64,000 nucleotides of DNA. Origin: Tetmemena sp. SeJ-2015. Lineage: Eukaryota; Ciliophora; Spirotrichea; Sporadotrichida; Oxytrichidae. Of this stretch, positions 23,068 through 47,130 are shown piece by piece. Where the stretch lies: positions 62,001 through 126,000 of the forward strand of contig JAJKFJ010020768.1 in NCBI GenBank assembly GCA_027382625.1, in the 5' to 3' direction. Positions within the stretch are counted from its first letter, which is position 1; each line of letters opens with the position of its first letter. Under the pieces are notes generated by a model. The model was not told the origin of the DNA and made no database searches. It saw only the letters and a list, made by a program, of their open reading frames with translations. Both the position numbers and the translations under genes were made by a program.

Positions 23068-24200
23068 TCACTAAAGAATTTTTAAGAAATCATCCCATAA
23101 GTCATTTGCCTTTTGAATGTAAGCTTCGTATTGCTTGTTCATAGTTTCATCCGCAGCAGGAAAAATAAGCTCATACCCCCCAGTCCTATTCCTCTCGTAT
23201 TCAAACCTCTCCTTGAGTTTCTCTTGCCTAAGCTTTTCCTTATCTTCCCCTCCGATTTTTTAAGTTTTGCCAGTCAATATTCTCTTATCCATTTCTTCTT
23301 TTTTGTTCTTAATATATTCCTGCCTTCTATCATAGGAGCAGTTCAGTAGGTTGAAAGCGTCACCTAATACATCTTTCTTTATTTTATAGTCAAGTGGAGA
23401 GTCTGTGGAGAAACTGGGCGATTAATTTACTTCTAAAAGCCAAGGCTTGCAGTCACTGTCTAGGATAATATCAAAACCCAACACTTGAAAGCACATTGAG
23501 TTAAGAAATGCAATACGTATAGGAAATTTATTAAAACTGAGTTATCTAAACACTCAGGCTAGCAAGACTTGTACAAGTGAGATAAGTAAGGCTGGCCAAT
23601 AACTAGAGTTTTCACGATGATGTCCTTGATTTAAATTATCCATAGTTTATGATATAGATTTAAGGTTGATTTCTCTGAGTAACTTCTCAGGATCATGACC
23701 TTCTCTTTTCACAAGACAAAGAATAGCATTGAGCGATCTTTTGTGGCCTTGATCATCTTCATCTGAGTCCTCATTTTGTTGAAACTTCGCATTATTCTTA
23801 TTTATGGCATAGTTTAAATTAAACACTTAAACTAAGTTGGTAAGGTGCATGTACAGATTGTCTAAGTTAGAGTTAAAAATAATTGCTAAAGTTATTTGGA
23901 GTTTCCTGGCTTTTGGTATTCTTCAGTTGCAAATCTTGCTAATCCCTCTTCGTGGAAGTAAATTCGGAGAGGATTGACTCCGTAGAGCATGACGTATATC
24001 CTCAAATCGAATTTTAGGTCCTCAATCAAGTAGGGCTTGGTTATGTATTACATTAAATTATTGTGTATGTATTCTTGCACTACACATCCTTCAGTTTGGC
24101 AGCTGTCCATTATTTCATCAAAGGAGCGACTAAGGAAGATGCCTTTGCCTTGAGATAAGGCCTCTGGCTTTACTATGTACGTTTTCTTTTTCGGTGGCTT
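23068..24200 (-). CDS. TTLL glutamylase, C-terminal half (scrambled gene, segment 2)
   Basis: This - strand segment encodes the C-terminal half of a tubulin tyrosine ligase-like ATP-grasp domain: [17 protein letters not shown] (ATP-binding lysine motif), [19 protein letters not shown]...YAINK, and [16 protein letters not shown] with the catalytic E and N, ending at TGA 23068-23070. It begins in mid-domain; everything N-terminal is missing on this strand and lies inverted at 26041-26780. The ATG at 24206 is six bases outside the pointer and is not a real start. Four direct-repeat-bounded inserts (listed) interrupt the most conserved motifs, and a further small frame change lies near 23630. TTLL enzymes add glutamate chains (or Tyr/Gly) to tubulin in cilia. 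A glutamylase of the TTLL6/9 type fits best, but the subtype is not settled. Confidence 0.9.
23497..23543 (-). other. Candidate IES, 41 nt, pointer TGAGTT
   Basis: TGAGTT at 23497-23502 and 23538-23543 (AACTCA on the coding strand). Removal joins PECLD to [15 protein letters not shown], restoring the TTLL segment before LEVN. The insert shifts the frame and is not GT-AG. Confidence 0.8.
23811..23838 (-). other. Candidate IES, 24 nt, pointer AGTT
   Basis: AGTT at 23811-23814 and 23835-23838. The 24-nt insert adds eight residues inside the invariant TTLL motif MHLTNYAINK. Removal restores it exactly. Confidence 0.75.
23870..23903 (-). other. Candidate IES, 29 nt, pointer GAGTT
   Basis: GAGTT at 23870-23874 and 23899-23903. 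Dropping 29 nt restores frame and gives [15 protein letters not shown], as expected between the ATEEY motif and MHLTN of TTLL enzymes. Confidence 0.8.
24042..24071 (-). other. Candidate IES, 24 nt, pointer TATGTA
   Basis: TATGTA at 24042-24047 and 24066-24071. The insert puts eight extra residues into [18 protein letters not shown]. Removal restores the consensus spacing. Confidence 0.8.
24193..24200 (-). other. Pointer at scrambled junction, copy 2 (AAGCCACC)
   Basis: GGTGGCTT on the + strand (AAGCCACC on the - strand) marks the start of TTLL coding on this strand. The same eight bases end the + strand half at 26773-26780. Joining the halves through one copy keeps the frame and reads [15 protein letters not shown]. 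Confidence 0.85.
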
Positions 24201-24206
24201 ACTCAT

Positions 24207-24307
24207 ATAAATGAATCTTGTAGTAGTTATAATTAAAATAGAGAGCTATTCAATCCTTGAGAAAATAAACGAGTGGAAGAGAGAAGAGGGTTTAGTAAAT
24301 TCTTAAG
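24207..24307. other. Short spacer between inverted blocks
   Basis: About 100 nt of AT-rich sequence beyond the TTLL pointer. No promoter motif can be named. Confidence 0.3.
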
Positions 24308-24805
24308 ATGAGCCGCATGAGTTGCAAGATCCCCAGCCTACTAGGATCCCAAGACCTTGAAGTTGATTCTAGACATAGACTTGAATGAGTTAGACCTAGT
24401 TGATCCAACTATTGCGCTTCAGCAGGTCAACAAAGGAAGTGGCTTAAATCAAAATGGATAGGTGGATAACACCTACATTTCAGGCGTGAGTAGTTTTAAT
24501 CCTCCTCATAATTTGAATGCCTCTTCAATTATTTGAATGTTTTTGTTTTTATTATAAATTACGAACAACTACCTATCAACTAATACCAACTATCACTCTT
24601 CAGCAGCTGGCAAGTTACACCAAAAGTAAAATTCAGGAGGAGTTCACAGCAGTTAAGCAGCATAGTAGTTGGAGAGCAACGCATAAGAGTTGCTTCAGAT
24701 GATCAAGCAAGAACAAGAGAACATAAAGAGAGTCACAGATCACAAGTACAAGCAATTTCACAGATAAACTATACTAATTAACTCATAAATTACTGTAAGA
24801 TGAAT
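24308..24805 (+). CDS. Small coding island between the two TTLL halves
   Basis: Two + strand stretches look coding with table 6: about 24360-24530 (NELDLVDPTIALQQVNKGSG, then SSFNPPHNLNASS) and about 24560-24800 (HSSAAGKLHQKQNSGG, then a helical NIKRVTDHKYKQFHRQT, ending at a TGA near 24803). The AT-rich piece near 24540 looks like an intron or IES. An ATG at 24308 opens a different frame, and a CTTGAA repeat at about 24356 and 24380 hints at a 24-nt insert. No family is known. It could be a small gene or stray MDSs of another scrambled gene. Confidence 0.5.
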
Positions 24806-25500
24806 TAAGTTTAGTAGCAAGAATATTTAAATGCCATTAACTAAAAATGAGAAAGTCACAAATAATTTTAAATTAGTTTTGAAAATAAAATAGATTAATC
24901 AAATGAATTTACTAATTATCGGGAAATCAAAATAAAACAAAGCATTAAAGAAATAAATAGAAGGATCAATCAATAGTTTTGAAGTCTTTATGATTAAATG
25001 CACGTGAAATTAGTTTTTGTTAAAGGTAAAAATTTCAGTTAAAAATATGATTACCGACTAACTAAAACTAAAATTAAAAAGCACCGTATGAAAGTCTATG
25101 ATTCTTATCCACATATCTTATTAAGAAAAAGCTATTATAAATTATATTTTTTAGGATGAATATATTTTTTTCTCTCCATATATATCCATGTTTTTTTGCT
25201 AAATTTCAAAAGACATTTGATTTTGTAAAGCGTTTTTATAGTTTGCTATAATTTAAAATTTAAATGTATATTCTAAATAAATTTTTATTTCATTAAGATG
25301 TAGTATGATCCTCTATTGCTACATCAGCATATTTAAACTTATTTGTTGTTAATACTTCTAAACTAATCATTCCTAAATCGTAATCCTGTATAATTATGAT
25401 TAGAGATTGAGTTATGGAAAATTGTATGGTTGATGGATAATTATTAATATGTAGAATATGAAAGGGAGAAAAAGTGAAATGAATTAACTCTAATTAATAA
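24806..25500. other. AT-rich non-coding stretch
   Basis: Strongly AT-rich, with no coding character on either strand. Confidence 0.5.
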
Positions 25501-25504
25501 AATG

Positions 25505-26030
25505 ATTAAAATAGTGCCCACTGCTGCCACTGTCATTTCCTCCCAGACTGCAACAGCAACACTTCTACCACTAATACTACTAACCCCTCTAAACAGTCCA
25601 CCTAGAACTACAATGATAATAAGAATTACAATATACTCTCTTATTTTTAGCTTCTATAAGAATCTAGCGGTCGATATATCGCCAATTACAAACAATAAGA
25701 ATCAGGCGCAGACAGTTGTAGATAACTCAAGTAAGACGGTAAGGTATTCATCCAACAAATATATTCATAAATCTCTTTTCAAGAAGATTAAGAAAAAATT
25801 GAAGGGACCTAAAATATTTAAAACTGGTTTATTGAAAATACACATCAACAATAATTCTAAAAAGTACTTTTTTTGCGTCCCGAAGAATTATTCTTGCTTA
25901 TTTCGATCTTTTTTCCAGCTACTTATCTATTTTTAGAAGGAAGTTGTGTAGGTTCAGTCCAAAATATAACATTCTAAGGCTCAGCAACATAATAAAATAG
26001 CTTGTTAGCCACCATTAAACTTTTTTATTA
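25505..26030 (+). CDS. Coding island with Cys/His cluster, no clear start
   Basis: With TAA/TAG as Gln, one frame reads a Cys/His cluster (HCCHCHFLPDC) then an N/T/S-rich region (NTSTTNTTNPSKQSTQNYND) and a polar Q-rich part to about 25860. The standard-code ORF over the same bases is in another frame and reads less naturally. I find no ATG in the right frame and no TGA before the TTLL start at 26041. It may be an internal MDS of a scrambled gene rather than a complete gene. Confidence 0.4.
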
Positions 26031-26040
26031 TATAAGAAAA

Positions 26041-26780
26041 TGCCTGTGAGTAAATATGATAACTTCGATCCTAACGCACTCTCTGACGACGAAGATAACT
26101 CTTGGGCAGACGATTTGTCAAATTCAGGTGCTTCAGGAGGAGCTGATGATGATTATTATGGAGAGGAAGATGGAGATTACGGAGAAGAATCAGTGATGAA
26201 GCACAGCAAGGTTCAAGATGACTCAATGTTGCAAGTTGCTTGTGGGGACGAGAGTGGATACTCAGTAAAAAAGAAGACTAACAAACGAGTTTGTATCAAT
26301 TCTAATATGATAATCTTAATTATGATCCTCAAAATGAATTCGATAGTTTGAATGTCTACTGCACCGAGTATGATGTTGTTAAAAAGGTAGCGAAGAGAGT
26401 GTGCAACTACAAACTCAAAGAATAAGAGGAGGATCACGAAGGTGCAATTATCAAAGGACAAGGAGGATAAAAGCTAAGTCCAATTTGGGACATTTCTTGG
26501 CATGATTTAGCAATCACTCCTGACTACATGAGCAAGATGCATTCTTATCAGAAAGTAAAATACATCGCATGCTTTAATCTCTTTAGGTTAATCACTTCCC
26601 CGGTATGTATGTTGTCTGTCGGAAAAATTTTCTTGCTAGAAATCTCATGAAAATGCAGAGACAGTTTCCTGAAGAATACTCTTTCTTTCCAAAGACTTGG
26701 CTATTGCCTTCAGAGCAAATTGAATTCAGGAATCAATTCTAAAGTATAGGTGCAAATGGAAAAGCTAATCCAAAGCCACC
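26041..26780 (+). CDS. TTLL glutamylase, N-terminal half (scrambled gene, segment 1)
   Basis: The ATG at 26041 begins an acidic N-terminus (MPVSKYDNFDPNALSDDEDN) with a D/E/Y/G-rich stretch. It is followed by the first half of the TTLL domain: WDISWHDLAITPDYMSKM, NHFPGMYVVCRKNFLARNL, FPEEYSFFPKTWLLPSEQ, and SIGANGKANPKPP. A 32-nt GT-AG intron (about 26557-26588) splits QK from VNHFPGM. A frame change near 26290 suggests a small IES. The homology stops at the pointer AAGCCACC (26773-26780); beyond it the + strand has no TTLL similarity, and the rest of the domain lies inverted at 24200-23068. Together the halves give one full-length enzyme of the usual domain order. Confidence 0.9.
26773..26780 (+). 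other. Pointer at scrambled junction, copy 1 (AAGCCACC)
   Basis: Last eight bases of TTLL coding on the + strand, identical to the first eight bases of TTLL coding on the - strand at 24200-24193. Confidence 0.85.
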
Positions 26781-26814
26781 AAAATAAATTCAACATTTGG
26801 TTCAGGAGGAAATA

Positions 26815-29800
26815 ATATTCATAGCTCTCTATGTTGCTAATGAAATCATTTTACTACTTTATTTCATCTAAATCTATCTGGAATCCTTGTTGTTTCTTAG
26901 AATTTCTTTTTCTGGTTTTGGATATGAGACCTACAAATTTTTCAATTTGGTTTGTCATGATATTCATCTGTTGTCTCATTCTTGCTAAAAAAAGCTATTA
27001 TAAATAGTTATCTTGACATTTCTGATTCCTGCATTTGATTTTAAGTTCTAAGTGTACATATTTCCTCAAACTGAGCAGACACCATACTTTGGCTTTGCTA
27101 TAGAGCGAGCGAAGCTTCCTCTGTAATCTATCTCTCAGGTGATTTTACAGCTCTTTAATTGGTGATGTTCGAATTATTCTGATGCACTCTAGCGCTGTTA
27201 ATCTCCTCATCAGTAACGTTTGTTGGCATTAAATAGCTCTCTTAAGGTACTTTTGATCCAGCATCTGCTTTAATAAAAGAAGTCTAGATACCCACATCTA
27301 GTGCTTCATAAAATTCTTAATCATCCCTCACAAGCTCTTTCAGATTTTTCAACGCTGACTTCTTTCTGAAAGAACTGCCTGAATCAAATGCAGCGCCTGA
27401 GTATACTGCTACATTCGTACTTGAATTTCCTCCGTTTCCTGAAATTCCTGGCTTTCTATTAGATAAAGCTCCCTAGTCATTAGTAGAGTTGGATCTTGGC
27501 TAATTATAGCTACCTCCTGCAGCACTTTAGGAATTCAAGCCTTGACCTTGGGTCTTTGAACGTGATCTTATCCTATTCTTATTATGCTAGATAAAATTCC
27601 TAATTTTTCTGGCATCTGCTCCATTCAATTCCTTTCAATGGAACTTAAAAATTTCTTTTAAGACTCTTATAAATTAGCACCGTTAAGATAAGAAGCAGGT
27701 TTTTCTGAATCAAATTCTTTCGTCTGGACCTCCTCCTTGAATTCAGTCTTTTTCTCCACTCCAACTATATCGCAGTAGATTTTATGTTAAAGCTACCTCA
27801 GCTCAGTCTCTTTGTCAGAGCAGATTCTTAAATATATATATACTCCTAGATATCATATTTTTGCTAAGATGTCTCTCCACTCATCAATTTCCAACTTCAA
27901 ATCATCAATGGCTTCTTTAGCTTGAAAAACAAGTTATTTAAGTCTTTCGCATCCTTCACACTCATCCTCAGAAACTTGCTTAAACTCAATTTATAATCAT
28001 TTTTTAGCTAGTTGGTATTTGCTATGTCTTGCTGAGATTCATTTTCAACATTATCTTCTTATTTACAAGCCTAGTCGTTTATTTTTGCTCTAAGAGGAGA
28101 CTATTAGAGCTGAGACGATTAGTCCTAGAAGTCTTATACTTAATATTCCAATACGTTCGAAGAAGAGTCTTATTCTGTGAACCTAAAATAAGAAAGAAGC
28201 ATTAAATTGAGTTATTTAAATCTTCGTAAGTTACTATCCTCCTGGCAATTATCTTAATTCTTGTATTGCAGAGTAGAGTTGTTGCGCATCAGTTTCTAGG
28301 GAGAGAGATTAGTAGGGGCTAAATTATTAACTTTTTGCACTTGCATTCCTTTCATGTTAACTATTGGCCTTATCTTAACATCCAAGATAGAACTTGACTT
28401 TTGCTACTAAATTAATAATTATAGTATGGCTGAGGGTGAGCATCATGAGAATTAGTCCTTGAATTTGTATTCTAAAGTGAGAACTGATTTTGCTGATTTT
28501 ATTAAAACTAGCGGCTCTTTTGAATTATTTGCTTGTTGGTTGCCTCCAAATAAAGCGCAGTTGCTATTACTGTGCAAAATCCCTGATCCTGCATTCATCA
28601 AACTGTGCAGATAACTATGCTGTTGGGGCTTGGAAAGTATAGCCATTACCATTTGTGAGAGAGTTGTTTTATCTCATTACACTTGACCCTCTATAATAAT
28701 TATCTTAAATAATGTAGAATAAGATTAATTTTAGGGGCTGTAGGATTGTTGATATTTGAGATTGTTTGACTCTGCATTGAAAGTTTCTTTCCTTTTTTCT
28801 CTGACAATATCAGACTATCCTCAGTATCTGATAACAATACATTTAAAGGATTAAATTGCAGATAGGTGTTTCTTGCTACTTGCATTTGCATTGACTCCAC
28901 TTCCTGCATTTACTCTTTCAAAACTCTAGATGAAGCTTCTTTATTTGAACCTGCGTTTCAAGTCAGAGTTTTTATTCTGCTGATCTTACAAGTCTGATTC
29001 TAGCTGCTCAATATACTACTACAAATTTCTTATCTTTTGCTGAGCATCCTCATCTTCTCCAAGTCCTGGACCTTCTTATACTTTGGTTGGCGAATAGTCT
29101 CCGCTCTTCAGCACGAGTTGATAAGGCAAAGACGAATTAATTTGAGTGAACTTTGGAGCGATATGATTAAAAAAAATAATTTCTGTCAGTATGGAAGATT
29201 TACTTTCTTATTGAGTTTGCTCTAACAAAAGTGCCTGTGCTGCTAGGCTAGTTGAAGCTTTGTTTACCATTACTAAGTGAATCTTTGGGAGAGGAGAGGT
29301 CAAAGATGCACTACTGTAAGTAAATTCTAATAAGAATTAACATTTCTTACTGCTGATTGCTTGGACTGAGTTCAAATTAAAGACTTCCACTAGGCCCCAT
29401 GCCATTCATTACGATTGCCTATTGCTAGATGCTATTGGCTGATACATCGCTTCTTCTTTAGTTCTGCGATCCTGAGTTTTATTTGCCATTCGAGTAAAGC
29501 TGATTGTTCTGATTTAGCCCACTTATGTTAATGTATTTTTGAGGATTTACAGTGTTTTGCATATCTGATCCAGTCGTGTAATATTTGAACTCGTTATATA
29601 CGACGGTAGCCTTCTATCCGGAGTTTTGAGTCTTAGAAATTTAAAAACAAAGCTCTATATAATAAGTCTTGTTACAATATGGAGCTGGAATATTTCTAGA
29701 TTCTGCTGATAAGACCTGTGCTTGTTGATGCAAGTTGCTTTACATTTAATAATTGAGACTCATAACTTTTCCTCTACCCCTGTCCATTTGTTGAGTGATC

Positions 29801-42182: not shown

Positions 42183-42253
42183 GTTCGTGTCGTATAGTGG
42201 TTAGTACCCTTCGTTGTGGCCGAAGAAACCTGGGCTCGAATCCCAGCACGAAC
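42183..42253 (+). tRNA. tRNA-His (GTG)
   Basis: 71 nt fold into a full cloverleaf: acceptor GTTCGTG with CACGAAC, D-arm around TATAGTGGTTAGTAC, anticodon stem CTTCG/CGAAG with loop TTGTGGC giving anticodon GTG, and T-arm CTGGG/CCCAG with loop CTCGAAT. The internal A and B boxes (TAGTGGTTAGTAC, GGCTCGAATCC) are intact. No intron and no encoded CCA, as usual for eukaryotes. Confidence 0.97.
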
Positions 42254-42257
42254 ATGC

Positions 42258-44588: not shown

Positions 44589-47130
44589 TCAGAAAATGCT
44601 TTGTATCACCAACTAAAGCAGAAGAATTTAGACCCTCAATTGAATCAAATCCAGGGTTGTTAACGTCTTAATTAAGGAAAAAATAAATGCGATGTCTTAT
44701 ATACCGCTAGCGTTAGTGTGATAGTGATGAAGAGGCTGAGTGTTGTTAAGAGTTGACTAAGACATGCTTAGCTTCCCATGCAACTCTGGATTGTATTGCC
44801 CTGGCTTCAGATTCTGAGATCCACTTAGATTCATACCATAGCCGTTGAACTTTGAAAGTACCTTAGAGTACCCAGTTCCAAACTAAATATCAAAATTAGA
44901 AGAACTCCAAATAATTTACTCTTTGAATCTTGTCGATTGAATTCGGGATTTTGCGGTTAGATTACTCTCCTGTTGTAAGTCTTCGCTGTAGTCCAAAGTT
45001 AAGCATGTCTTTGGTAATCGCTTAGCCTTGAGGAAGTGCATTAATTTACTTAGTCGTTAGAAACCCATCTGAGATGTCGTTTTCGATAATCTAGGTACTG
45101 AATTTAAGCAATCAACTTTATTAAAATTTCTGTAGTTAATGGACCTGACTTGCAACCATATTAGATGTGTGATGGAAGTTCATGTGGTTAAACAGAATAT
45201 CACTTTGCTGAAGAAGTTAAGTCAGAGTAGAGGCAGCTCCCATTCCTCCACCAGTTGCCACACCAGTTTACCCTCCATTCGTAGTCTGGTACATCACTAT
45301 ATCAAAGAGATTCTTCATTTGCTTGTCTATCACTCTAAAGTTCTTTCGAGTGTCATTTCTATCTGCCATTGACTTTGTGAGGGCTTTCACTACATCATTC
45401 ATTCTATCTACCATCTTGATCTCCAACTCTGCTGTAGAGTTCTGTTGGAAGAGATATCGCATTTCATCTCTGAGATCATCAACCTTTTTGAAAGCTATGT
45501 TTTTGAGATTGTGAATTTAAATGTTCATTGCCTTCATGTCTGCAAGAAGGTGATCAGCTGAAGGAGGAATATTCCGCTTGATATCTTCAGTTATAAGCCA
45601 GAGATCTTATGCTTTAGATTCCACGTTTTCAAGTCTTCTTGCCACGTGGAAGTAACGCTCGTTCAACAATTTCATCTCATCTATTTCATTGAACATAGTT
45701 CGCAGTCGCTTGTTCATGGCCTCTAAATCTTCTTTTGGGAAATTAATTATCATAAAAGTGAGTGTGACATAATGCATTGAAATATATTTTGGGTTGATCT
45801 CTGCAAACTGCATCTTGATGTAGCTTTAGCCGTCTGATAGTTTAGTGAGATTTGCCTGTAGTTTTTAGATCTAGCTATCCATTTCAGTTTTGAGATCATT
45901 GAATTTTCCAGCCAGTTTAGGATCAACATCTTTCGACTGAACCTTTCAAAAGCTCCAATCCATCTCTCACTTCAGACAACTAATCCTTAATATCATCTAG
46001 TTCTAGCTCAAAGTCTTCTATCAAAAAGTTATCTCCACTATAAAATAGCTATAAGGGTAAAATTAATCTTACCTCTCTTTAACGTCAATCGCTCCAGCAG
46101 CATTGAATCCTGATCCTCTTTTCTTTGTTAACTAAGTTTTAACTTGAGAGCCATTTTGCAATGCATTTATTATGGTAGGTCGTCTCATAATGGAAGAACC
46201 ACTTTCCATTTAAAAACTACAAAGCAATAAGATTTCTTTCCTTAATTATTGCTATTATCATTTCCTTTAACTGAGCTTAGTCTATGCCACCTATTCTGCT
46301 CCCTCCTGAGTACAAATTTGCACAAACAAATGAAACGGAAAATGTTATTATCTTCACTGCTGCTTGTATTGGAATGTTAGTTCAGCTAGGATGATGCATT
46401 AAGCAAGCCACTTGCATTTGCACTCATGCCTCCATTAGCTGGTTGCCCTCCACCCATCAACATTTGCTACTTCATACCCATAAACTGGTCTTGTAAATCT
46501 GAAAGCTTTTGCAAAGTGGCTTAAAGGTCTGCAATTGTTGTATTTTCAAAAGTATTGAAGCGTGATAACACTCCATCAACCTTGAAAGTCAAACTATTCT
46601 TGAAAGACTAAATCAATTAACTCAAACTTAAGATTTAAAACTCAAATTGTATCATTATAGTTTAAAGCAATGACATTTTAAAATTATAATACCTCAACTT
46701 GCGAAACTCTTTGACTGATCTCATTTAGCTGTTACTAGTTTCTATAATGAAATTAAACTTTCTGAAATGACTTCAATTATCAGGGGATGTTACAGATAAT
46801 TTTGACTTACTATATTTCTCTTAGCTAGCTTTAGTCTAAAGAGCTTTATTGTTCAAGTAGAGCCTTTTCATGAATAATAGTAGTGGATTGCAAGCTCTGA
46901 AGAATTCTTTTGAGTTTTTCAAAGTCAAATGAAAATCTAAACATGGAATCGAAGTCACCAGGGTCAACTGCAGTCAGCAATACAGATCCAGATGCTGGTG
47001 GGTTTATCGATGTTACCGCTTAATTAGCACTATAATCTTTGGGTTGAATAATTTAGCTTAGGACGTCAATCTCTGATGCTTAGGGTGGTTGGCTCAAGGA
47101 CAATGAGTTATTTTTTCTTATTATCTCCAT
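44589..47130 (-). CDS. Coiled-coil protein, interrupted gene
   Basis: The ATG at 47130 (MEIIRKNNSLSLSQPPQASE) is followed by a helical block near 46900, a helix-then-glycine-rich part near 46430-46540 (LQKLSDLQDQFMGMKQQML), and a long coiled coil at 45290-46060 (FLIEDFELELDDIKDQL, AMNKRLRTMFNEIDEMKLL, KMVDRMNDVVKALTKSMADR). The tail has YSKVLSKFNGYGMNLSGSQN near 44850. Two pointer-bounded inserts restore the heptad pattern when removed. In-frame TGA 44589-44591 is the likely end. AT-rich gaps at 46220-46330, 46600-46730 and 46760-46820 look like introns or IESs. The layout is vaguely like central-channel nucleoporins but without FG repeats, so I do not name it. Confidence 0.6.
45733..45793 (-). 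other. Candidate IES, 54 nt, pointer TTTTGGG
   Basis: A 7-bp repeat at 45733-45739 and 45787-45793. The insert encodes a hydrophobic stretch out of place in a coiled coil. Removal keeps frame and reads EINPKEDLEAMNKRL. Confidence 0.75.
45930..45947 (-). other. Candidate IES, 13 nt, pointer CTTTC
   Basis: CTTTC at 45930-45934 and 45943-45947. Removing 13 nt corrects the frame, avoids a TGA and reads ELLKDVDPKLAGKFNDL. Confidence 0.75.

Follow-up and report, generated by a model that had tools for sequence, protein, structure and literature searches.

In a 64,000-nucleotide stretch of the Tetmemena sp. SeJ-2015 genome assembly GCA_027382625.1 (bases 62001-126000 of contig C1848, JAJKFJ010020768.1; hereafter, the window), a TTLL gene, predicted to encode a tubulin glutamylase, is divided into two parts lying on opposite strands, and a neighbouring gene, here termed N, appears to be divided likewise. 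It is probable, at roughly 0.83, that a single germline inversion split both genes, and that development would restore each of them at pointers, the matching repeats at the broken ends. From left to right, the order is the C-terminal half of TTLL (minus strand), the 3' part of N (N2, plus), a spacer, the N-terminal half of TTLL (plus) and the 5' part of N (N1, minus). The first-pass annotation of this DNA had recognised the divided TTLL gene, both halves of which could be located, decoded and joined, but had missed N, of which N1 adjoins the N-terminal half of TTLL and N2 the C-terminal half.

The window belongs to an assembly of 146 Mb in 5,213 contigs and, judging by its features, is very likely germline DNA of a spirotrich ciliate. 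In its coding frames TAA and TAG specify glutamine and TGA is the stop codon, with the joined TTLL frame itself crossing TAA and TAG codons. A telomere-type C4A4 20-mer lies at base 1 of nine contigs of the assembly; a control with the pattern reversed says nothing about this motif, which reads the same in reverse. Together with short, AT-rich, pointer-flanked internal eliminated sequences (IESs) and further copies in the same arrangement, the genetic code and these contig ends support the earlier reading of TTLL as a scrambled spirotrich germline gene with an inverted macronuclear-destined segment (MDS).

The N-terminal half of TTLL, at 26040-26780 on the plus strand, consists of two MDSs and one intron, and starts at an ATG at 26040, one base before the position first annotated (26041). 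It reads in frame following the removal of a predicted 53 bp IES (26298-26350, plus, pointer AAT), which restores the TTLL frame both in the window and in the copy on contig C4981 although the two differ within it, and of a predicted 32-nt GT-AG intron (26555-26586, plus), which yields the sequence QKVNHFPGM, aligning to TTLL6. The C-terminal half, at 23068-24200 on the minus strand, consists of five MDSs and ends with a TGA at 23070-23068. It contains four predicted IESs on the same strand: 29 bp with pointer AACTC (23875-23903), 24 bp with pointer AACT (23815-23838), 40 bp with pointer AAATCAA (23633-23672) and 41 bp, or 39 bp in C4981, with pointer TAACTCA (23504-23544). Hence neither raw half is a single open frame, the first requiring the loss of an IES and the intron and the second that of four IESs; in the window these five IESs span 24-53 bp and are 76-83% AT. 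The 8 bp pointer AAGCCACC was found, as reported, at both broken ends in an orientation that permits joining: at 26773-26780 (plus), ending the N-terminal half, and at 24193-24200 (minus), starting the C-terminal half. Joining there, after the five IES removals and one intron removal, gives an uninterrupted frame of 548 aa ending in TGA. The halves are separated by 1,839 bases (24201-26039), in agreement with the earlier figure of about 1.8 kb, but this is not all unrelated sequence, as the first 650 bases contain the 3' part of N.

The join also restores the enzyme's domain, as the first-pass annotation had claimed. Scored against the Pfam TTL model (PF03133, curated cut-off 20.1 bits), the N-terminal half reaches 39.5 bits (model positions 4-62) and the C-terminal half 218.9 bits (66-282), while the joined protein reaches 263.0 bits in one stretch crossing the join (4-282 of 292); the domain is nearly whole in the joined protein only, and neither half contains all of it. 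Mouse TTLL6 aligns to the joined protein in a single piece (residues 76-539, E 1.1e-90), the nearest solved structures being those of TTLL6 (PDB 8t42) and TTLL7. Residues 200-240 are crossed in one alignment by 119 of the 120 homologues listed, from 3,445 found; among those listed, ciliate members with an organism name are at most 48% identical to the joined TTLL, and other entries up to 68%. The likeness to TTLL6-type tubulin polyglutamylases (PDB 8t42, 6vzt) lies in the nearly whole TTL domain of the joined protein and in the one alignment over residues 76-539. A tubulin glutamylase resembling TTLL6 is the predicted product.

Paralogues in the same assembly provide a comparison. Alignments to their loci cross the position of the TTLL join on one strand in 27 cases, a number that includes overlapping fetches of one place for some loci and two cases with a nearby TGA. 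A survey of the assembly, in which 134 of 204 candidates were scored, gave at least 144 TTL-domain matches falling into 99 loci, allelic copies included. Of the 43 loci in more than one piece, 41 were collinear on one strand and two resembled neighbouring separate paralogues; this survey is a weak test, because the window's own N-terminal half went unregistered. With about 99 loci, allelic copies included, the TTLL family is very large in this assembly.

The decoded end of N1 extends over 26821-27999 on the minus strand, with predicted IESs at 27827-27859 (pointer AAT), 27636-27658 (AAAG) and 26985-27015 (CAAGA). The decoding covers the part below 28000, and frames that look coding extend from there upstream as far as about 29900. 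N2 occupies 24238-24850 on the plus strand, with predicted IESs at 24527-24556 (AATTA) and 24765-24811 (TA) and a TGA at 24848-24850. A further candidate IES in N2, of 17 bp with pointer GATCCC, was rejected, being only 41% AT and read through unexcised in two other copies, where the window instead has a one-base break. The 12 bp pointer of N, ATAGAGAGCTAT, stands at the start of N2 (24238-24249, plus) and at the end of N1 (26821-26832, minus), and nowhere else in the window. With the IESs bearing pointers AAT, AAAG, CAAGA, AATTA and TA removed, the C4981 copy of N reads in frame through the ATAGAGAGCTAT join to the TGA. When the window is compared with C4981, 19 of 22 substitutions in N1 are at third positions, counted in the frame fixed by the earlier decoding of N, as are 16 of 22 in N2 when C4981 is compared with a further contig, C1030. 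Among the best candidates scored in the assembly, the decoded 537 aa of N were found only in the window contig, C4981 and C1030.

The two genes are broken at the same two places. At the left breakpoint, a spacer of 37 bp (24201-24237, 81% AT) lies between the C-terminal half of TTLL and N2, and at the right, one of 40 bp (26781-26820, 75% AT) lies between the N-terminal half and N1, each spacer separating one TTLL pointer from one N pointer. Such a back-to-back layout, with the C-terminal half on the minus strand to the left and the N-terminal half on the plus strand to the right, does not result from flipping one half of TTLL alone; one inversion across parts of two genes gives it. When the segment of approximately 2.6 kb was turned back in silico, all four parts came to share a strand, the pointer copies standing 38 and 39 bp apart; the cut points within the spacers are our choice and the total of 77 bp is fixed, this being the size of two ordinary IESs. 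Before the inversion, N1-N2 and the two TTLL halves would have stood in tandem on the minus strand, each gene interrupted by an ordinary short IES. An inversion of about 2.6 kb, with one breakpoint in the N IES and the other in the TTLL IES, would have generated the present order, and development would rejoin both genes at their matching pointers. A pre-inversion IES at this site of TTLL is plausible, since in the best-scoring paralogue loci (C695, C3080 and C4754) an unscrambled IES of 38 bp lies, by our reading, no more than about one codon from the join site. Once this IES is removed, C695 and C3080 read NNKKAKTFIIKPE, in agreement with protein P0020 of Stylonychia lemnae, and C4754 reads as C3080 there.

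The arrangement recurs elsewhere in the assembly. C4981 aligns to positions 29904-19740 of the window in three pieces of 98.1%, 98.2% and, over the last 190 bases, 96.8% identity. It has the same arrangement as the window and decodes to the identical 548 aa despite differences within the IESs, one of which changes the length by 2 bp; all ten substitutions between the two across 1,647 coding bases of TTLL are at third positions. C1030 aligns in three pieces at 95-97%, or at 92% over a longer query (23068-26832), and contains the junction of the C-terminal half with N2. Its C-terminal half, decoded with pointers that we set as AAC, AACT, ATCA and AACTC, encodes 331 aa with six residue differences, 45 of the 993 bases being changed, 37 of them at third positions. 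Divergence in the eliminated segments alongside a largely conserved protein is as expected of IESs, and makes a slip in assembly an unlikely source of the arrangement.

The first 160 bases of C1030 consist of exactly C4A4C4A4C4, 24 bases absent from the window and then the 3' end of N. The last predicted IES of N (pointer TA, at 24765-24811 in the window) is gone here, while the inverted order and the remaining IESs persist. The 24 bases following the telomere had no match in the window, and their 13-base core had one, with one mismatch, at 46156, which is no more than chance. C1030 may be a partly processed molecule, and so a hint of processing, or a chimera of macronuclear and germline sequence.

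Several observations weigh against a single inversion of two genes, or against parts of that account, and the first concern the repeats themselves. AAGCCACC occurs four times in the window against 0.78 expected, a number reached in none of 100 shuffles. However, when 3,980 random pairs of 60-base stretches were drawn from the window, 326 of them (8.2%) contained an inverted match of at least 8 bases, placing the 8-mer, taken by itself, within chance; matches of at least 12 were present in two of the 3,980. A scan of the DNA for two inverted repeats in parallel order returned 43 instances in the window, whereas 20 shuffles gave between 16 and 41 each (mean 25), so that the window exceeds the shuffles narrowly and the TTLL/N pair is just one of the 43; this paired signature was dropped as support, the shuffles not being clearly beaten. 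Given such chance levels, repeats alone prove little, and the case rests on the coding evidence. What goes beyond a chance 8-mer is its position at coding ends, in frame and completing one protein domain, and the strength of the case is that each repeat marks a coding end and each join preserves the frame. The first-pass judgement that the TTLL arrangement was hard to explain otherwise consequently holds for the coding evidence, but not for the 8-mer alone. A joined, macronuclear copy of TTLL or N gave no match in the 146-Mb assembly at up to three mismatches, which leaves the rejoining predicted, not seen.

Other difficulties concern N. Homologue and Pfam searches with its decoded 537 aa gave nothing usable (one Pfam match fell below the cut-off), hence the N join rests on its frame and substitution pattern. 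In C4981, the copy of the pointer corresponding to 26821-26832 carries one mismatch, leaving eight exact bases, such that the two copies would use N pointers of different length. A one-base frame break near 24351-24362, absent from C4981 and C1030, interrupts the window's own N2, which therefore lacks a read-through itself. These leave room for the alternative that TTLL is truly an inverted scrambled gene but arose through other steps, such as duplication and decay or several moves, with the parts of N having been split independently or not belonging to one gene. This is improbable, though the most serious of the competing explanations: duplication and decay is the route to scrambling favoured in PMC9797194, and no homologue confirms the N join. 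That the breaks in TTLL and in N coincide at two sites, to within 37 and 40 bp, is predicted by one inversion and not by independent events, and the two parts of N meet in frame at a 12-mer, with the third-position substitution pattern in both. Nor were leftover duplicates found among the best candidates scored in the assembly, in which, beyond the three copies, the region 23068-26832 had only short matches of 69-90% and the decoded N none; a duplication model is thus unneeded at this locus.

A further point bears on TTLL itself. Directly upstream of the pointer of the C-terminal half lies an in-frame ATG (24206-24204, minus, beginning MSKPP), and C1030 has one in the same place (MPKPP). Such a start could permit a short C-half protein if the locus were left unprocessed. 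It would also suit a fission of TTLL into two separate functional genes, the second starting at its own ATG. We regard fission as very unlikely: beyond the pointer, the frame of the N-terminal half is free of TGA for more than 100 codons and would enter N1 in antisense, neither half holds the whole TTL domain, and the paralogue alignments, with the overlaps and TGAs mentioned above, cross the position on one strand.

C1030 lacks the N-terminal half, and the right junction is consequently seen in two copies only. Given also that this is a draft assembly of 5,213 contigs and that C1030 may itself be chimeric, an inverted misjoin might be suspected. This is extremely unlikely, as the left junction is present in three contigs differing by about 2-5% and the right in two, and each cut lies between a pointer of TTLL and one of N. 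Equally unlikely is that TTLL is a decayed pseudogene, for which the frame break in the window's N2 might be taken as a sign, given the identical 548 aa in two copies and the restriction of ten out of ten substitutions to third positions.

Elsewhere in the window, a tRNA-His (GTG) gene was identified at 42183-42254 by both ARAGORN and Rfam. Between the end of N2 and the start of TTLL, the sequence at 24920-26039 is 27% G+C, and no gene was recognised there, no family search having been made in it.

Spirotrichs are already known to have inverted scrambled genes and interleaved loci (PMC9797194, PMC10901763, PMC5940158, PMC2394655, PMC4684698 and PMC7599177). In inverted scrambled genes of hypotrich ciliates, such as actin I of Stylonychia lemnae (PMC2394655), MDSs similarly occupy both strands, with pointers where MDSs end and short IESs between other MDSs, the pointers being 3-19 bp in length compared with 2-12 bp at the TTLL/N locus. 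By contrast, only one scrambled junction was found in TTLL, the same inversion seems to split a second gene, and the joined product is predicted. Interleaved and nested loci of Oxytricha trifallax (PMC5940158) resemble the present one in having segments of one gene between those of another, and 272 of 387 interleaved-only loci, hence most, are scrambled; the interleaving of TTLL and N would be explained by one inversion with both breakpoints common to both genes, a form that some of the 387 may share. In Oxytricha, template RNA guides joining (PMC9797194). The model of local duplication and decay (PMC9797194) also addresses the origin of scrambling, but needs paralogous copies, of which none were found at the TTLL/N locus, where a single inversion is proposed instead.

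As an inverted scrambled gene, TTLL is of a kind known in spirotrichs; the fresh part is the proposed inversion that split two genes within their IESs, a reading that is well supported. In the literature searched, no account was found of two neighbouring genes being scrambled by one inversion from IES to IES, which is not to claim its absence from print. One older study, to go by its title, reportedly dealt with two genes intertwined in the germline.

How the massively scrambled genomes of ciliates arose has yet to be settled, and duplicated segments are central to the leading model. The TTLL/N locus has the look of an uncomplicated beginning along a different route, namely one inter-IES inversion affecting two genes together, with no duplication found and little later change. 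We lean towards the view that a single step can be enough to begin scrambling, with no duplication involved, in that an inversion with both breakpoints in pre-existing IESs would create a reciprocally interlocked pair of genes; as the existing pointers would let development repair both at once, such an inversion would be invisible to selection. The prediction is that simple inverted scrambled genes should often occur in neighbouring pairs with both breakpoints in common, which can be counted in germline assemblies that have a macronuclear reference.

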